Assembly (NCBI GenBank): GCA_025998675.1
Contig: AP024673.1
Coordinates: 2,736,562-2,800,561, forward strand
Reading direction: 5' to 3'
DNA length: 64,000 nt
DNA from: Fimbriimonadales bacterium
Lineage (GTDB): Bacteria; Armatimonadota; Fimbriimonadia; Fimbriimonadales; GBS-DC
Part shown: one piece after another, positions 1,480 through 22,708 of the stretch
Position numbering within the stretch: the stretch's first letter is position 1
How the letters are laid out: every line of letters starts with the position of its first letter
The notes under the pieces: model-generated
Told to the model about the DNA's origin: nothing
Databases searched by the model: none
What the model saw: the letters and a program-made list of their open reading frames with translations, nothing else
Program-made: the position numbers and the translations under genes

Positions 1480-1527
1480 CGGGATCTCTCCATTCGGTTA
1501 GAGGGGACACGCGCGGCGGCGTTCCGT

Positions 1528-1860
1528 TCAATCGAAAATGTCGAACAGGTCTTCGAACCAGTCGCGCTTTTTGCGTCGCTTGCGCTTGTGGTGCGGGTCG
1601 TAGTAGTAGTCGTCATCGTCGTCGTAGCGCGGTTGGGGGCGCGCGTGAGGGCGGGGCGTCGGCGCAGGCGCAGGCGGTTCAGGCGCGTAGGCGGGCGGCG
1701 CGCCCCGCTGCAGGCTCTGCGTCTCCTGCGCATGACGCTCGATAATCTTGTCCAGCTCCCCCCGATCGAGCCATACCCCCCGACAGGTCGGGCAATAGTC
1801 GATTTCGATGCCCGCCCGCGTCGCTATCTGCAGGTCGGTACTGCACACAGGGCACTTCAT
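1528..1860 (-). CDS. zinc-finger (TFIIB-type) protein, acidic low-complexity tail
   Basis: About 110 residues starting MKCPVCSTD. It has the CxxC...CxxC arrangement MKCPVC / DYCPTCRGVWLDRGELDKII that defines the small zf-TFIIB family of bacterial zinc-ribbon proteins. A proline-rich linker follows, then a YDDDDDYYYD run and the basic patch KRKRRKKRDW, ending WFEDLFDIFD. I chose the start at MKCPVC. An upstream in-frame ATG would add seven residues, and neither has a clear Shine-Dalgarno sequence. The function is unknown; members are predicted to bind zinc and perhaps nucleic acid. Confidence 0.7.
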   Translation of the reverse strand: MKCPVCSTDLQIATRAGIEIDYCPTCRGVWLDRGELDKIIERHAQETQSLQRGAPPAYAPEPPAPAPTPRPHARPQPRYDDDDDYYYDPHHKRKRRKKRDWFEDLFDIFD

Positions 1861-1925
1861 AACGCCATGAGTGTACCCCAAGACGGCGGGCAGGACTCGC
1901 GCGCGGTTGCCCGAATCGGTCGCCT

Positions 1926-3230
1926 ATGCGCAAGTGGCTGATTGGTTGTGGCGTGCTGTTTGGGATTGCGCTGGTGCTGTGTGTGGGCGCGCTGGTGTGG
2001 GCGTTCATCCCGCCAAAGATAGAGATTCCCCCGCGCCAGTTGCCGCCCAACAACGCGCATCCCGAATATGTCGCGCTGGCGGAGGCGATGCGCGTGCGCC
2101 TCGACAACGATGCACGCTTCAAGCAGATTGAGAACGCCGCTCTGGGTGGGCAGCCGCTTTCCCCCACCGACCGCGCGTATTATCTGCAAACCATCACGCC
2201 TTTCCTGAAACGCTACGAGCAGCTGGTGAACCGCCCATGCGTGGTTTCCACCGAGCGCAGCTACAACGCGATGTTCCCTGAACTGGTGCAGATGCGCCGT
2301 ATCGCCCGCACGGAGGCGTATCTGATGCGTGAGGAATTGCGCCAGCGGCGCTACCGCGACGCGATTCGGCGCGCCGATCGGCTGAGCCGTCTGGCAGACC
2401 AGGTACGCAACGGCGGGCCGCTGATTCACTACCTCGTCGGCGTCTCCATCCACGCCATCGCTCTGGACCCGCTCCGAACCGAGCTGCCCCGCATTCAGGA
2501 GCGCGCCGCGCTCGAAGCCCTGCTGCAGTTCGCGCGCGACCACGAACAACGGCGCACACCGCTCTGGAAATGCATGCAGGAGGAATACTACTTCGGGCTG
2601 AGCAATTACAGGGATATGGCAGAAGGGCGCATCGACTACAGCGAGGTGGTTCCTGACGATTCGGAATCGGGCGGAGAATCTCAGAGGCGCAATCCACTTT
2701 TTACACGCTTTATGGTCAAGACCGCGCTTCCAGAGTACCATCGGTTCATGCAGCGCACGGTCGATGAGCTGAAACTGCCGTTTGCCGAGCGTCCCCGTCG
2801 AACGGCAGAGTCCCTCGAGCGCGAGGTGCGCCACCCGCTGAACGCGATTCTGCTGCCTGTCTTCGCCAGAGCCAGCGATAGGGAGGCGGGCGAGATTGCC
2901 ATGATGCGCTTGATGGGCTGCGTAGCGGCGATACGGTTGCACAAACTGCGCACGGGCAAATACCCCGCGTCGCTGGAGGCGTTGCAACTGGGCGAGATGA
3001 TAAATGACCCGTTCTCAGGCAAGCCGTTCGTGTATAAGACCGACCCGCGCTTCGGGTTCCTGATTTACTCGGTGAGTCGGAACCGAGTCGATGACGGCGG
3101 TGCAACGACCTACATTGACGTAGCCGAAGAGCGCGGCGACATGTCGCCCGTGAAAGTGCCCCTGCCCGATCATCTGAAGGGTACACCCCCTCAAGAGCAA
3201 CCGCTGGTCGCCCCCATCTGGCTGCGATAA
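1926..3230 (+). CDS. membrane-anchored hypothetical protein
   Basis: A 434-residue protein with an N-terminal signal anchor (residues 3-27, WLIGCGVLFGIALVLCVGAL) and a mostly helical extracytoplasmic part. The C-terminal region reads RTGKYPASLEAL, DPFSGKPFVYK and GFLIYSVSRNRVDDGG. That is the motif order seen at the ends of many planctomycete and armatimonad surface proteins that resemble the GspG pseudopilin C-terminus. It starts 65 bp after, and divergently from, the zinc-finger gene. No enzyme motif is recognised. Confidence 0.75.
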   Translation: MRKWLIGCGVLFGIALVLCVGALVWAFIPPKIEIPPRQLPPNNAHPEYVALAEAMRVRLDNDARFKQIENAALGGQPLSPTDRAYYLQTITPFLKRYEQLVNRPCVVSTERSYNAMFPELVQMRRIARTEAYLMREELRQRRYRDAIRRADRLSRLADQVRNGGPLIHYLVGVSIHAIALDPLRTELPRIQERAALEALLQFARDHEQRRTPLWKCMQEEYYFGLSNYRDMAEGRIDYSEVVPDDSESGGESQRRNPLFTRFMVKTALPEYHRFMQRTVDELKLPFAERPRRTAESLEREVRHPLNAILLPVFARASDREAGEIAMMRLMGCVAAIRLHKLRTGKYPASLEALQLGEMINDPFSGKPFVYKTDPRFGFLIYSVSRNRVDDGGATTYIDVAEERGDMSPVKVPLPDHLKGTPPQEQPLVAPIWLR

Positions 3231-3315
3231 CAGAGAACATCAACACACGAATCGCGTCAATTGGTGTGGTATACTGAATCGCCAGTTAGTCAATCTGGCG
3301 CACGGGGATGACAAA

Positions 3316-5208
3316 ATGAGAGCGGTATGGATGCTGGGGTTGCTCAGTGGGCTGGGCGTTCTGAGCTGGAACGCCGCGCCAGTTGTGAACGACCAGAATA
3401 CGGGACGCGCCGTTTCGCTGAAACATCGGGTGCTGACCGAAGCGCCCAAATCGGGCGTGATTAATCGCCGCGTATCCGACATCGAGTTCACTGACCTGCA
3501 GGGACGCGCCTATACGCTCAGTGAGCTGGTGCAGCGCGCCCCCGTCGTGTTCATCTTCACGGCGACGAAGTGCCCCGCCGCGCAGCGGTACACCGTGCGC
3601 ATCAACCAGCTGCACGAAACCTACCGCAAGAAGGGTGTGCAAGTATTCCTGGTCTACCCGAACTACGACGACACGCGCGAGGCGGTGCTGGCGCATAAGC
3701 GCGAGTACGGGCTGAAGCCGCCTGCGGTGCATGACCCCGACGGCGCGCTGGCGCAGGCGCTGGGCGCGACGATGACCCCGCAAGCCGTGCTGGTCGACCG
3801 AAAGATGCTACTGCGCTATCGAGGCGCGATTGACGACAACCGCTACGAGACCCGCGTGCGCGCGCACTACCTGAAAGACGCGCTCGATGCGGTGCTGGCG
3901 AACAAGGTGGTGAAGGTCGCCTCCGCCGAGACCTTCGGCTGCACGATACGGTTCCGCGACGAAGCCGCCGAGAGCGCGCCCATCACCTACGCGAAGCACA
4001 TCGCGCCGATTATGCAGGAGTATTGCCAGCCGTGCCATCGCCCCGGACAGGTCGCGCCCTTCTCGCTGTTGACCTACCGCGACGCCTACACCTGGCGCAA
4101 AGAGATAGCGGCGGTGGTCAAGGCGCGCCAGATGCCCCCGTGGAAGCCCGTGCATGGCTACGGCGAGTTTCAGGGCGAGCGACGCCTGACCGACGAACAG
4201 ATTGCGATGATTCTGCAGTGGGTGGAGACGGGCGCGCCGATGGGCAACCCCAGCGATATGCCCCCGCCCCGACAGTTCAGCAGTGGCTGGGCGCTGGGCG
4301 AGCCGGACATCGTGTTCGAGATGCCCGTTGAGTACGAAATCGCCCCCACCGGCGAAGATGAGTACCGCCATTTTGTGATCCCGACCAACTTCGGCGAAGA
4401 TGTGTTCGTGCGCGCGATTGACATCGAGCCGGGCAACCGCAACACGGTTCACCATGTGATTGTGTATCTGGACACGACGGGCACGGCGCGTCAGCTGGAC
4501 GCCGCCGATCCCAAACCGGGCTACGAGGCGTTCGGCTGGCCCGGGTTTGTGCCGGCGGGGATGCTGGGCGGCTGGGCGCCGGGCATGACCCCCAGCGTGC
4601 TGCCTGAAGGCACAGGCTACCGCCTGCCCAAGGGCGCGGATGTCGTGCTGCAGATTCACTATTACCGCACGGGCAAGCCCGAAAAAGACCGCACGCGCGT
4701 GGGCATCTACCTCGAGAAAAAGCCGAACCCACAGCCCGTAGGCATCGCGTGGATTATCAACCCGATTTTCCGCATCCCCGCAGGCGCGGAGCGGCACGAG
4801 GTGCGCGCGATGTGGATTGCCCCGCGCGATATCGAGGTGGTCGCCATTACGCCCCACATGCACCTGCTGGGACGCGAGATGCGCATCGAGGCGGAGCTGC
4901 CCGACGGCACGAAGCAGACCCTCATCTGGATTAACGACTGGGACTTCAAGTGGCAGGATAACTACCACTACAAGACGCCTGTGAAGCTGCCGCGGGGTAC
5001 GCGCGTCACCGTCTACGCCTACTACGACAACTCCGAGAAGAACCCGAACAACCCGAACAAGCCGCCCAGAGATGTAACCTGGGGCGAGCGCACGCAGGAC
5101 GAGATGTGTCTGGCGTTCCTGCATGTGATTGGCGAGGAGGGCACGGGCTTTCGCGGTGGGCGGCGCGGCGGCGGGGGCGGTTTCTTCCGCCGTAGCGCGA
5201 ATCCGTAA
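3316..5208 (+). CDS. secreted redoxin - cytochrome c-like - copper monooxygenase-like fusion protein
   Basis: A 630-residue exported protein with a hydrophobic N-terminus (about residues 3-20). Residues ~55-190 form an AhpC/TSA-like thioredoxin domain (DIEFTDLQGRAYTLSEL, TPQAVLVDR); its usual CxxC is reduced to TATKCPAA. At ~residues 234-245, EYCQPCHRPG is a CxxCH haem c or P460-type site, followed by MPPWKP. The C-terminal ~300 residues carry NTVHHVIVYLD and ITPHMHLLGREMRI, the paired histidine motifs of the ascorbate-dependent Cu-monooxygenase fold. The tail is a glycine/arginine-rich stretch. A likely function is periplasmic redox chemistry with copper and haem; the substrate is not evident. 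Confidence 0.8.
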   Translation: MRAVWMLGLLSGLGVLSWNAAPVVNDQNTGRAVSLKHRVLTEAPKSGVINRRVSDIEFTDLQGRAYTLSELVQRAPVVFIFTATKCPAAQRYTVRINQLHETYRKKGVQVFLVYPNYDDTREAVLAHKREYGLKPPAVHDPDGALAQALGATMTPQAVLVDRKMLLRYRGAIDDNRYETRVRAHYLKDALDAVLANKVVKVASAETFGCTIRFRDEAAESAPITYAKHIAPIMQEYCQPCHRPGQVAPFSLLTYRDAYTWRKEIAAVVKARQMPPWKPVHGYGEFQGERRLTDEQIAMILQWVETGAPMGNPSDMPPPRQFSSGWALGEPDIVFEMPVEYEIAPTGEDEYRHFVIPTNFGEDVFVRAIDIEPGNRNTVHHVIVYLDTTGTARQLDAADPKPGYEAFGWPGFVPAGMLGGWAPGMTPSVLPEGTGYRLPKGADVVLQIHYYRTGKPEKDRTRVGIYLEKKPNPQPVGIAWIINPIFRIPAGAERHEVRAMWIAPRDIEVVAITPHMHLLGREMRIEAELPDGTKQTLIWINDWDFKWQDNYHYKTPVKLPRGTRVTVYAYYDNSEKNPNNPNKPPRDVTWGERTQDEMCLAFLHVIGEEGTGFRGGRRGGGGGFFRRSANP

Positions 5209-5220
5209 GCGCGTATCGAG

Positions 5221-6237
5221 TTATCCCATCGCCTTGCGGAACAGGATAATCGCGACGACCGCCATCGCCGCCGCGATGCCGTACAGTATCAGCACCGTCT
5301 GGCGCTGGCTCAAGCCGCGCTGCAACAGCTGATGGTGGATGTGCTGCTTGTCGGGTTTGTGAATCGGCTGTCCCTTGAGCAGGCGACGCGCGACTGTCAG
5401 CGCGGCGTCCAGAAACGGCAGCCCGAACACCAGCACGGGGATAACAATCGCGAAGGCGGTCGCCGTCTTGAACGCGCCAATCACGGACAGCCCGCCAAGC
5501 ATAAAGCCCAGAAACTGCGCGCCGCCCGTGCCCATGAAAATCCGCGCGGGGTTGAAGTTGTAGCGCAGGAATCCGCCCGCCGCGCCTGCGATTGCCGCCG
5601 CCGTAATCGCAATCAGCCAGTTCGGGTAGGGCTGGTCGAGCAAATCAGCCGCCTGCAGCGCCATCAGCGCGAGCGCGAACGCCGCGATTGCGCTCACTCC
5701 CGCCGCCAGCCCGTCCAGCCCGTCGATGGTGTCCATCGTCTTGCTGACCACGAATATCCATAGCGCGGTGATGGGAATCGCCCACGCGCCCAGCGGAATC
5801 CAGCGCGCCTCGCTGAACTTACCGCCAATCGGCGCGGCGAAGCCCTCAATCTGCACGCCGAACAGCTGCACCACCAGCCCCGCCAGCAGCAGCGCGCCCA
5901 TCTGCACCAGCGCGGAGAACTGCTTACGGTCGTCCAGCATGCCGACAATCAGCACGCCCGTGCCCACCAGCAGCAAGCCGAGAAACTGGAACGCGCGCCC
6001 CAGAAACACGCTATCGGACGGCGCAAGCAGGTACAACCGCGTCAGCCCCGCCAGCATCCCCACAGCGACGCCAAAGTAGATGGCTAACCCGCCCCAGCGC
6101 GGTATCGGCTCGGTATGCACGCGCCGCGCGTCGGGGATGTCCATCGCGCCCGCCCGAATCGCCAGCCGCCGCACCCACGGGGTCAGCAGGTAGGTCGTCG
6201 CCAGCGCCAGCAGGAACACCGCTGTAATCGTCTTCAT
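5221..6237 (-). CDS. undecaprenyl-phosphate sugar-1-phosphate transferase (MraY/WecA/TagO family)
   Basis: A 338-residue polytopic membrane enzyme of glycosyltransferase family 4. It would transfer a HexNAc-1-phosphate from UDP-sugar to undecaprenyl phosphate, the first membrane step of a cell-surface polymer. Seen: IPRWGGLAIYFG, the catalytic DTIDGLDGLAAG loop, ARIFMGTGGAQFLGF, and the HIHHQLLQRG motif that marks the WecA/TagO subgroup rather than MraY. About ten hydrophobic segments are visible. The ATG overlaps the stop of the upstream dCMP deaminase gene by 4 bp (ATGA), so the two are probably co-translated. Confidence 0.88.
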   Translation of the reverse strand: MKTITAVFLLALATTYLLTPWVRRLAIRAGAMDIPDARRVHTEPIPRWGGLAIYFGVAVGMLAGLTRLYLLAPSDSVFLGRAFQFLGLLLVGTGVLIVGMLDDRKQFSALVQMGALLLAGLVVQLFGVQIEGFAAPIGGKFSEARWIPLGAWAIPITALWIFVVSKTMDTIDGLDGLAAGVSAIAAFALALMALQAADLLDQPYPNWLIAITAAAIAGAAGGFLRYNFNPARIFMGTGGAQFLGFMLGGLSVIGAFKTATAFAIVIPVLVFGLPFLDAALTVARRLLKGQPIHKPDKQHIHHQLLQRGLSQRQTVLILYGIAAAMAVVAIILFRKAMG

Positions 6238-20117: not shown

Positions 20118-20309
20118 ATGACCAATACCGCTGTCAAAGAGAAGGTTCGGGTGAACGACACGGAGTTCGAGATTACCCTCAAGCCCGTGCTGCCGCAGAC
20201 GGAGAACGACCCGATGGTTCTCGACCAGCCGCTGCCGACGCCCGACGAGGTGCTGGAGCGCGTGCCCTCCATCGAGCGGCTGCCGCGCTGGGAAGACGGC
20301 GCTTGCTAA
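20118..20309 (+). CDS. small protein, candidate ubiquitin-like/modifier substrate of the adjacent E1-E2 system
   Basis: 63 residues from MTNTAVKEKV (AGGGGGTATAGT in front of the ATG) to the C-terminus RWEDGAC. A single beta-hairpin is predictable (KVRVNDTEFEITLKPV); the rest is proline/glutamate-rich and looks disordered. It is too short for a complete beta-grasp fold. Its place as the first gene before an E2-like and a JAB-E1 gene is where a ubiquitin-like protein is encoded in known prokaryotic conjugation operons. The Gly-Ala-Cys end could be trimmed by the JAB domain to expose Gly-Ala. The role as modifier is inference; it might instead be an accessory peptide. Confidence 0.6.
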   Translation: MTNTAVKEKVRVNDTEFEITLKPVLPQTENDPMVLDQPLPTPDEVLERVPSIERLPRWEDGAC

Positions 20310-20312
20310 GCG

Positions 20313-20756
20313 ATGAACCAGCGGGTGCGGCGCATCATGACGGAGGTCGCGCTGGCTGCCGTCCGCTACTCCGCGACGCGCAGCGCACACTACGACGACG
20401 AGGACGGCAGCTGGGTCATCATCAAGGATTTCCCGCTGCCTGCAGGCTACAACTATGACCATACCGATGTGCTGATCCTGCTGCCGCCCAACTATCCGCA
20501 GACGCCGCCCGACTGGTTTTATGTGGACACGGACCTGCTGCTGGAAAACGGCGACGAACCGGACCATGTGTTTTACGACGACCTGTCGTTTGACCCGAAT
20601 GAGGAGCTGTTCGCGGAGGCGCCGCCCCAGCTGCGCGGCTGGACGGGCTGCTGCCTGCACATCTACGAATGGAAGCCCGCCGCCGACCCGCTGGAGGGGC
20701 ACTCCCTGCTGAGCGTGTGTGAACTGATCAAGGGGGCGTTCGAACGCTGGAAGTGA
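20313..20756 (+). CDS. E2-like ubiquitin-conjugating-family protein (Prok-E2 type E)
   Basis: 147 residues with the E2 (UBC) fold signature: strand-hairpin core WVIIKDFPLPAGY, then VLILLPPNYPQTPPDWFYVD, the bacterial form of the E2 motif hPxxYPxxPP. The C-terminal GWTGCCLHIYEWKPAADPLEGHSLLSVCELI has Cys113/Cys114 at the expected catalytic position, and the HSLLSVCELIKGAF helix. This pattern matches the prokaryotic E2-like family E found with JAB-ThiF proteins. It starts 3 bp after the small modifier gene and ends 4 bp inside the E1 gene. It would accept an activated modifier from the E1 as a thioester and pass it to a target. Confidence 0.8.
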   Translation: MNQRVRRIMTEVALAAVRYSATRSAHYDDEDGSWVIIKDFPLPAGYNYDHTDVLILLPPNYPQTPPDWFYVDTDLLLENGDEPDHVFYDDLSFDPNEELFAEAPPQLRGWTGCCLHIYEWKPAADPLEGHSLLSVCELIKGAFERWK

Positions 20757-22213
20757 GATACGAAGTGTCGCCCATGATGGGAGAGGTGCGCGTCCCGCAA
20801 GCCGTTTGGGAGCAGCTACGCGCGACGCTGCTTGCCGACCTCAGCTGCGAGACGAAGTGTTTCCTGCTGTGTCGGACGCTGGAGAGCGACGCGCGGGTGG
20901 TGTTCCTCGCGCGCGAGGTGGTTCCCGTGCCCGACGAGGGCTACGCCCAGCGCACGGCGAGCCTGGTGGAGACGCGCCCGGAGTTCGTGCATGCGCTGCT
21001 GGTGCGTTGCGCCCGTGAGGGCTACGCGCTGCTGGACGCGCACACGCACCCGTGGACGACGCAGCCGCGCTTCTCCGCCATCGACGACCGCAGCGACCTG
21101 CAGAAGTTCCAGACGACGCAGCCCATGTCGCCGCCGTTTCGACACGGGAGCCTCGTGTTCGGCAACGACATGAGCTTTGAGGGGCGCTTCTGGGACTACG
21201 CGCGGGAGGCGTTCGCGCCCATCACCCGCCTGCAGGTGCTGGATATGCCCCCGCAGACGCGCTATGGCGTGGGGTGTGCGCCGCAGGAGTGGGCGACGGC
21301 GGCGCAGGCGGTGTACGACCGTCAGGTGCGCGCGTTCGGCGCGGAGGGGCAGGCGATGCTCAGTCGCCTGCGCGTGGCGGTGGTTGGCGCAGGCGGGCTG
21401 GGGTCGCAAATCGCGAATGCGCTCGCGCTGCTGGGCGTTGGACGCCTGCTGCTGATTGACCCCGATCGGCTGGAGCTGAGCAACCTGAACCGTGTGGTGG
21501 GCGCGAGCTACGCGCAGGCGGCGCGCGGCTGGCGCAAGGCGCGCGCGCTCGCGCAGCGGCTCAACCGCGTCCGCCCGCCCGAATCACGCACGATTACGCC
21601 CCTGCCCGTCGATGTGCGCACGCCCGGCGCGCTCGCGCACCTGCTCGGCTGCGACCTCATCGTCGGCGCGGTGGACAGCGCGGTCGTGCGGCAGTACCTG
21701 AACACCGTCGCCATGTGCGCCCTGATCCCCTACCTCGACGCCGGGGTCGGCGTGCGTAGCGCGGACGGACGCCTCGAACAGGGCGGCGGACAGGTGCAGG
21801 TAATCGTTCCCGGCGCAACCGCCTGCCTCGCCTGCACGGAACGCGGCATCCGCCAGAGCGTCGAGGAGCAGCTCACGCCCCACCAGCGCGAACTCTCCAT
21901 CCGTGGGGGCTACATTCAGGGCGAGGCAATTCCCAACCCGCAGGTGGTGTTCCTCAACGGCGTGGTGGGCAACCTGCTGGCGTGGGAGCTGGTGAAGCTG
22001 ATTACGGGCTGCGCGCCCGTGCAGCCGTATGTGTATTACGACCTGCTGGGACAGCATGCGTTTCCCGCACGCGCCGAGCGCAATCCGAACTGCCTGCTCT
22101 GCTCGGCGCATCCCGATAGCCTGCTGGGGCAGGGGCTATACGGGCTGATGGGCTACCTTGCGCCGCCGCGCGCGCCCAAACGCAAACCCATTCCCGCGCC
22201 GCGAGGACAATAA
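20753..22213 (+). CDS. JAB deubiquitinase-like - ThiF/E1-like adenylation fusion protein
   Basis: 486 residues, GTG start coupled to the E2 stop (GTGA). An ATG seven codons in is an alternative start. Residues ~10-150 form a JAB/MPN metalloprotease domain: H97-T-H99 with S108 and D111 (HxH-x8-SxxD, the JAMM zinc site), and a possible catalytic Glu33. Residues ~195-450 form the E1 domain: GAGGLGS at 212-218, LIDPDRLELSNLNR with the adenylation Asp and Arg, VGAVDSAVVR, and a zinc knuckle from C358xxC361 and C447xxC450. It would both process the modifier C-terminus and adenylate it. Such fusions accompany prokaryotic E2 and ubiquitin-like genes. Confidence 0.88.
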   Translation: MRYEVSPMMGEVRVPQAVWEQLRATLLADLSCETKCFLLCRTLESDARVVFLAREVVPVPDEGYAQRTASLVETRPEFVHALLVRCAREGYALLDAHTHPWTTQPRFSAIDDRSDLQKFQTTQPMSPPFRHGSLVFGNDMSFEGRFWDYAREAFAPITRLQVLDMPPQTRYGVGCAPQEWATAAQAVYDRQVRAFGAEGQAMLSRLRVAVVGAGGLGSQIANALALLGVGRLLLIDPDRLELSNLNRVVGASYAQAARGWRKARALAQRLNRVRPPESRTITPLPVDVRTPGALAHLLGCDLIVGAVDSAVVRQYLNTVAMCALIPYLDAGVGVRSADGRLEQGGGQVQVIVPGATACLACTERGIRQSVEEQLTPHQRELSIRGGYIQGEAIPNPQVVFLNGVVGNLLAWELVKLITGCAPVQPYVYYDLLGQHAFPARAERNPNCLLCSAHPDSLLGQGLYGLMGYLAPPRAPKRKPIPAPRGQ

Positions 22214-22216
22214 GCG

Positions 22217-22708
22217 ATGGCGAAACCGATCCCCCCAAACCGTCGCTGGCTGCAGAATCAGGGGGCGCGCGCCGAATCCCAGGCGCCGACGCCTGCGCCC
22301 GAACCTGTGCCTCGGGTCAACCTGAATGTCCAGAATCTGATACGCGAGCTGCTGGGGGATCCCGTCGATGAGGACTTCGATTTGCACGCGCTGGTGGAGG
22401 CGTACCTCGACGACGAGCCGCAGGGGCGGGTGGAGGTGCTTCACGCACGCTATCCCGGACAGTGTCAGGGCTGTGGGCGTTCGATTCGCGTGGGCGAGCG
22501 AATCACGCGCCATGCGAACTGGGGCGTGTGGGTGCATGAGGGGTGTCGCAACAGTCAGCGGCGCGCGCTGCGCACCATCACGGCGCGCTACAGCGGCGTC
22601 TGTCGATACTGCCGCCGCGCGATTGCCGTGGGCGAGCGCATCAGCCAGCACAACCGCTACGGCTGGATCCACGAAGCCTGCGCCCAGCAACTGCAAGACC
22701 AGTCCTGA
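22217..22708 (+). CDS. tandem CCHC zinc-finger protein, fourth gene of the E1-E2 operon
   Basis: 163 residues. A disordered, proline-rich N-terminus is followed by a helix (NVQNLIRELLGDPV) and two near-identical modules of about 34 residues: ARYPGQCQGCGRSIRVGERI...WVHEGC and ARYSGVCRYCRRAIAVGERI...WIHEAC. Each has CxxC plus HxxC, enough for one zinc in a treble-clef-like fold. It begins 3 bp after the JAB-E1 stop, so it is part of the same operon. By position it could be a substrate adaptor or E3-like factor; binuclear RING spacing is not seen. No function is proven for this family. Confidence 0.7.
   Translation: MAKPIPPNRRWLQNQGARAESQAPTPAPEPVPRVNLNVQNLIRELLGDPVDEDFDLHALVEAYLDDEPQGRVEVLHARYPGQCQGCGRSIRVGERITRHANWGVWVHEGCRNSQRRALRTITARYSGVCRYCRRAIAVGERISQHNRYGWIHEACAQQLQDQS

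Follow-up and report, generated by a model that had tools for sequence, protein, structure and literature searches.

A putative Bub-like protein-conjugation operon with a minimal candidate modifier in Fimbriimonadales

The stretch of DNA analysed here (the window) comprises 64,000 nucleotides from a Fimbriimonadales bacterium (assembly GCA_025998675.1, contig AP024673.1) whose genome consists of one contig of 2.99 Mb. Four genes are packed on the plus strand at positions 20118-22708; they code for a small protein, an E2-like protein, a fusion of a JAB and an E1 (ThiF) domain, and a zinc-finger protein (Table 1). All four open reading frames were found where the initial annotation had placed them, on the same strand and, as called, with gaps of 3, -4 and 3 bp. 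The value of -4 hinges, however, on the GTG start of the JAB-E1 gene, which is doubtful because most homologues match only from residues 6-10 of the GTG-started protein. M8 or M9 is an alternative start that would turn the overlap into a small positive gap. Scans for promoters and terminators did not yield a site at the operon.

The relatives present in the genome collection were Fimbriimonadales/Armatimonadota MAGs and HRbin15. As the same four-gene order recurred in eight other contigs spanning it and selection on the small gene is strongly purifying (a median pN/pS of 0.165 in 105 pairs, vs 0.243 for the E2 gene), the operon is not a product of chance. Conservation and pN/pS likewise ruled out a chance open reading frame for the small gene.

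Table 1. Position and support of genes and sequence features in the operon (window coordinates).
Feature	Position	Strand	Characteristics or support
Candidate modifier gene (small protein, 63 aa)	20118..20309	+	Hairpin, linker, C-terminal LPxWxDG, 2-residue tail
Gly61 codon, predicted mature C-terminus	20298..20300	+	Invariant in 19-homologue alignment; G059 homologue stops at WEDG
E2-like gene, Prok-E2_E family, BubB-like, 147 aa	20313..20756	+	Profile and structure matches
E2 Cys113-Cys114	20649..20654	+	Catalytic C/S-x-H falls on column 114
JAB-E1 (ThiF) fusion gene, BubCD-like, 486 aa	20753..22213	+	Profile and structure-relative matches
JAB metal site HxH-x8-S-x2-D (H97, H99, S108, D111)	21041..21085	+	Alignment, 26 E1 rows
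E1 nucleotide-binding loop GxGGxGS	21386..21406	+	E1 alignment
E1 zinc-knuckle cysteines C358/C361 and C447/C450	21824..22102	+	Crossover loop C361-C420 Cys-free
Tandem CCHC zinc-finger gene, 163 aa	22217..22708	+	N-terminus PIPxNRRW conserved
Two C-x2-C-x(n)-H-x2-C fingers, C83-C110 and C129-C155	22463..22681	+	Finger-protein alignment

The E2-like protein matched Prok-E2_E (PF14462) with 50.2 bits (cut-off 25), and its closest solved structure was BubB of Citrobacter (1.3e-5). Its structural model was confident (pLDDT 88, pTM 0.86). BubB was the best match of the model (Z 12.7, 2.7 A, 121 residues aligned); many eukaryotic E2s (UBC proteins) came next with Z <= 9.7. Conservation of the cysteines had been set beforehand as a check on the conjugation reading: Cys113 was present in 18 of 18 clade sequences and Cys114 in 17, the exception being the Cys-Ser of the distant phylum member G059. 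This check was passed, and profile match and BubB fold bear out the initial annotation of an E2-like protein. The Cys-Cys-Leu-His of the clade contrasts with Ser-x-His in canonical Bub E2s, and column 114 was Ser, mostly within S-x-H, in all canonical Bub-type sequences aligned (Halorarius, Mycolicibacterium, Mesorhizobium, Synechocystis, Deinococcus, Pseudanabaena, Roseomonas, Methylomagnum, G106 and G093). Natrinema and two further Armatimonadota (G007, G275) also have Cys in this column. The window motif CCLHI...W.P...SLLSVCELI resembles CLDI...WSP...SICSLL of classical E2s. Prok-E2_B was not matched in the host genome, where the control was silent as well. A survey from 2006 described E2s of the 6e type as being without the cysteine (PMC1779556).

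The JAB-E1 protein matched ThiF with 143 bits and Prok-JAB with 23.5 bits, the latter slightly below the cut-off of 25; the closest solved structure was BubCD of Citrobacter (2e-22 over residues 28-423). JAB residues E33, H97, H99, S108 and D111 were invariant in 26 aligned E1 rows, distant Bub members included, as were the adenylation residues G212, G215, G217, D236, D238, N244, N246, R247, K262, D308 and R313. A JAB fused to a ThiF/E1 domain with intact motifs, as first described, is thereby confirmed, and homology to BubCD and the conserved catalytic residues support, at the level of sequence, that activation and removal reside in one polypeptide. Since none of the 23 E1s examined contained a cysteine from the first zinc pair to about residue 412, the enzyme appears to be without a catalytic cysteine in its crossover loop. 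In the maximum-likelihood tree of E1 proteins the Armatimonadota clade, including G059, received a support of 100/100 and stood apart from canonical Bub E1s; the tree did not resolve the deeper branches.

The small protein had been described as a short modifier candidate with a C-terminal GAC. The reading of the C-terminus is corrected here, and a ubiquitin-like fold could not be shown. LPxWxDG was C-terminal in all 19 aligned homologues (54-70 aa), among whose invariant residues are E8, V10, N13, P23, L55, P56, W58, D60 and G61. Behind the invariant Gly lies a variable tail of 0-4 residues starting with A, G or T (AC, AR, AF, AY, TC, GY, GC, ATE, ATKR, APA, GLR, GANA or GGDA), so that the window protein consists of a conserved part ending in LPRWEDG and a variable AC. 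As the 54-aa homologue of G059 stops exactly at WEDG, and as several canonical-type modifiers similarly have an FG end followed by nothing, LR, RS, GGV or HGTY, GAC is read as conserved Gly plus variable tail; the functional terminus is likely Gly61. With respect to fold, a model of low overall confidence (pTM 0.24) showed a hairpin (residues 6-12 and 15-21) and, beyond a linker, a short helix. Searches of Pfam, Multi_ubiq included, did not give a significant match, and in a profile comparison with nearby multiubiquitin-type domains nothing but the hairpin, 13 residues long, could be aligned, with a probability of 13%. Homology to multiubiquitin thus could not be demonstrated, nor could beta-grasp similarity be detected by sequence. 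The G059 protein seems too short, and its regular pattern too poor, for a full beta-grasp. Given the hairpin-only match and the low pTM, the small protein may not dock on the E1 like a normal modifier. A search of the 18 family genomes for a multiubiquitin gene, in which the control was silent too, gave no hit. The position of this gene in canonical operons is occupied here by the small gene.

The fourth gene stands where canonical operons have a DUF6527 gene, and it adjoins the E1 gene or the E2 cassette in most copies. Its product, which did not match DUF6527, has a conserved PIPxNRRW N-terminus; a linker that varies separates this from two CCHC fingers, each spaced C-x2-C-x(about 20)-H-x2-C. 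The duplication initially noted thus exists in the window protein but is not obligatory, as the G159 homologue has a single finger. Comparison with PDB and Pfam gave weak matches of the treble-clef type (ZNRF1, E 0.19; Prok-RING_1 in six members, best E 0.026), which are insufficient for an assignment as E3. PHROG 1581, a PHROG without assigned function, matched all members. Our guess is that the finger protein might be a target-binding or E3-like factor.

Among the 18 family genomes, E1 was detected in 15, and modifier, finger protein and E2 in 14 each; one extra weak modifier match in G174 is probably due to chance. In 291 genomes of the phylum, modifier and clade E2 occurred in the same 15 genomes, the exception being one weak modifier match in G110 (Fisher 2e-25; the genomes are related and do not represent 15 independent events). 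The initial annotation had called for a survey of whether the small gene stands beside the other genes: in each of the 18 family copies found it was the direct neighbour of the E2 gene, also where E1 was lacking. Six copies were without an adjacent E1 (G000 at 113756-114423, G160, G161, G164, G159 and G168), and in all six genomes an E1 was located elsewhere. G000 is the host genome itself, and the modifier and E2 of its satellite pair (C1:113756-114423; L042:5757-6424) share 82% and 70% identity with their window counterparts; the pair has neither E1 nor finger gene and lies beside 3-hydroxyacyl-CoA dehydrogenase-like and sigma-factor genes. The genes flanking satellite cassettes are conserved between pairs of species. 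E1 and finger protein but not modifier and E2 were found in G163, a genome that is 65% complete. In G061 (L047:6347-6965) the copy has decayed to a broken E2 and what is left of the small gene, with E1 not seen nearby.

The four-gene set is kept in most genomes of its genus. The flanks of the window copy are shared by the nearest species (L008) only, while L001-L004 have another site in common and L006, L007, L009 and L010 differ. Since E1 identity to the window falls with GroEL identity (Spearman 0.84, n=7), the data are consistent with mostly vertical inheritance of the set. Genes for DUF1385, BNR-repeat, zinc-ribbon and matrixin-like proteins surround the window operon, and helix-turn-helix/ImmA or DNA-damage regulators were not seen beside it. 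Canonical relatives, in contrast, are carried by plasmids and are often accompanied by DUF6527 and helix-turn-helix/ImmA regulators. The G059 copy, located beside TraG-like and replication-relaxation genes, is the sole copy by transfer-type genes. A recent plasmid origin of the family copy was rejected, as plasmid relatives are merely about 30% identical, and so was a viral or phage origin, as relatives were found neither in IMG/VR (E2, small protein) nor in phage records (E1).

The four-gene form had initially been considered to match no known operon, although the element family with Prok-E2 and JAB-E1 was correctly recognised as known (BubB and BubCD are the closest solved relatives). By its gene order (modifier, E2, JAB-E1 with N-terminal JAB, zinc protein) and homology, the operon is a homologue of known Bub / Iyer type 6e operons. 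Canonical Bub proceeds via a serine oxyester, and known Bub modifiers consist of one to three beta-grasp domains. Bub has reportedly been characterised by Ye et al. 2026 and Gong et al. 2025. Further shared features are the Prok-E2_E protein encoded between modifier and E1, the Cys-free E1 crossover loop and, in several Bub modifiers, the conserved Gly followed by a short variable tail. The clade differs from Bub/6e operons as follows: (i) a modifier of 54-70 aa without Multi_ubiq match instead of one to three multiubiquitin domains of ~70-75 aa; (ii) Cys114-Leu-His in the E2, with Ser in G059 alone, instead of Ser, mostly Ser-x-His; (iii) a CCHC finger protein instead of the optional DUF6527 (C-x3-C-x35-38-H-x2-C); (iv) no adjoining regulators seen, E1-less satellites and broad retention in the genus. 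Because neither a beta-grasp modifier nor a Cys-less E2 is found in its sequences, the Armatimonadota clade is filed as a distinct variant, Bub-like in its presumed working, and not as a plain 6e member.

The operon was also compared with other systems. Like Pup, the small protein has about 60 residues, is apparently poorly ordered and ends in a short conserved C-terminus, but it did not match the Pup family (PF05639), and Pup is attached by the ligase PafA while the window operon encodes E1, E2 and JAB. Eukaryotic ubiquitin and ISG15 systems share the E1 adenylation residues, the UBC fold of the E2 (Z 9.7, C. elegans UBC) and a JAB-type removal enzyme, whereas the Cys-free crossover loop of the window E1, the lack of a demonstrable ubiquitin fold in the modifier and of an assigned E3 set the operon apart. 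With respect to the Bil defence operons (ISG15-like, BilA-BilD), matches to the E1-E2 models of PADLOC were confined to E1 domains. MccB, an E1-family enzyme that adenylates the heptapeptide MccA, is a precedent for a peptide substrate without ubiquitin fold. It was a distant match of the window E1 but, unlike the latter, makes an antibiotic and acts without E2 or JAB.

Additional loci with candidate modifiers were observed. The host genome contains a Pup-type 20S proteasome cluster (L141:5850-9741; G000:C1 about 1821849-1825740) coding for a Pup_ligase-family protein (515 bits), a 62-aa open reading frame ending in YRQRSGQ and two proteasome subunits. This open reading frame did not match the Pup model, and its end resembles the UBact type. 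The host cell may hold two unrelated small-modifier systems. In the distant relative G007 (L048:4672-10126) the modifier is fused to the E2; directly upstream on the same strand lies a pair of AAA+ genes that look like the halves of a Clp unfoldase, which hints at a connection with unfolding or degradation. G275 (L049, reverse complement 1480-5594) encodes a 70-aa beta-grasp-like modifier ending in GGC, a Cys-type E2 and a JAB-E1 within a 1061-aa open reading frame. A haloarchaeal operon on a Natrinema plasmid (L137:1822-3961), which encodes a modifier-like protein of 80 aa and an E2 with Cys-x-His, represents a second Cys-type lineage.

The window operon probably encodes a Bub-like system for reversible protein conjugation with a minimal modifier. 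In the proposed cycle, the JAB domain of the 486-aa protein would trim the 63-aa protein after Gly61, and the E1 domain would adenylate the newly exposed Gly. Because the E1 crossover loop is Cys-free, the modifier would then leave the adenylate for the E2 directly, with Cys114 as the most likely acceptor and Cys113 assisting. Probably under the guidance of the zinc-finger protein, the E2 would transfer it to target proteins, from which the JAB domain could remove it again. The sequence supports each catalytic centre of this cycle, whereas the reactions themselves (trimming, adenylation, thioester formation and conjugation), the targets and the part played by the finger protein are inferred. 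Conjugation is favoured by the homology of E2 and JAB-E1, the catalytic residues, the terminus of the modifier, its pairing with E2 and the co-occurrence of E1; an invariant Gly with a variable tail, together with the G059 protein ending at Gly, is as expected of a C-terminally trimmed modifier. Against a thioester speak the Ser of canonical Bub E2s at this position and the Cys-Ser of G059. Against conjugation speak the small protein, with its lack of a Pfam match and its low pTM, and the incomplete genome G163, in which modifier and E2 were not found. The more specific reading that a modifier without ubiquitin fold (beta-hairpin, disordered linker, LPxWxDG tail) is conjugated by a true E1, E2 and JAB via an E2 cysteine is offered tentatively.

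An unlikely alternative is that the small protein is an E2-bound adaptor or regulator while the true modifier, a beta-grasp protein of the ThiS/MoaD type, is encoded elsewhere in the genome. A small protein for which a hairpin alone is predicted, without beta-grasp signal, and which stays with the E2 as a cofactor would, is compatible with this. The invariant C-terminal Gly with its short variable tail, the location of the gene at the multiubiquitin position and the G059 homologue that stops exactly at that Gly are hard to explain for an adaptor. We consider it more improbable still that the zinc-finger protein is the main substrate or the effector and the system a self-contained switch that responds to stress or phage, as has been suggested for other Bub operons. 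The proximity of the finger gene to E1 or E2 cassettes would fit, and other Bub operons are often placed under DNA-damage regulators, with phage protection not demonstrated (PMC13373217). No such regulator gene was seen beside the window operon, the set is kept in most genomes of the genus, unlike patchy defence genes, and in the satellites and one main copy the N-terminal motif has Arg in place of the Lys that might serve as acceptor. Very improbable is a sulfur-carrier function, in which E1 and JAB would serve thiocarboxylate formation on the small protein: although JAB, E1 and a small Gly-ended protein also occur together in sulfur-transfer clusters such as those for siderophore or cysteine synthesis (PMC1779556), the small protein is always paired with a dedicated E2, the E1 protein (JAB and ThiF only) contains no rhodanese domain, no sulfur-metabolism gene lies directly beside the operon, and among solved structures BubCD is nearest to the E1.

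For the conjugation system preferred here, retention across most of the genus suggests a physiological role, in contrast to patchy defence operons. The Cys/Ser contrast at the E2 site within one family makes the choice between thioester and oxyester directly testable, and two modifier-E2 pairs sharing one E1 in one cell offer a simple test of specificity. If the tentative reading of an E2 cysteine acting on a modifier without ubiquitin fold were true, a ubiquitin-type cascade would need no beta-grasp modifier. If the small protein is the modifier, conjugation chemistry would be separable from the ubiquitin fold, and a hairpin-with-tail tag would suffice.
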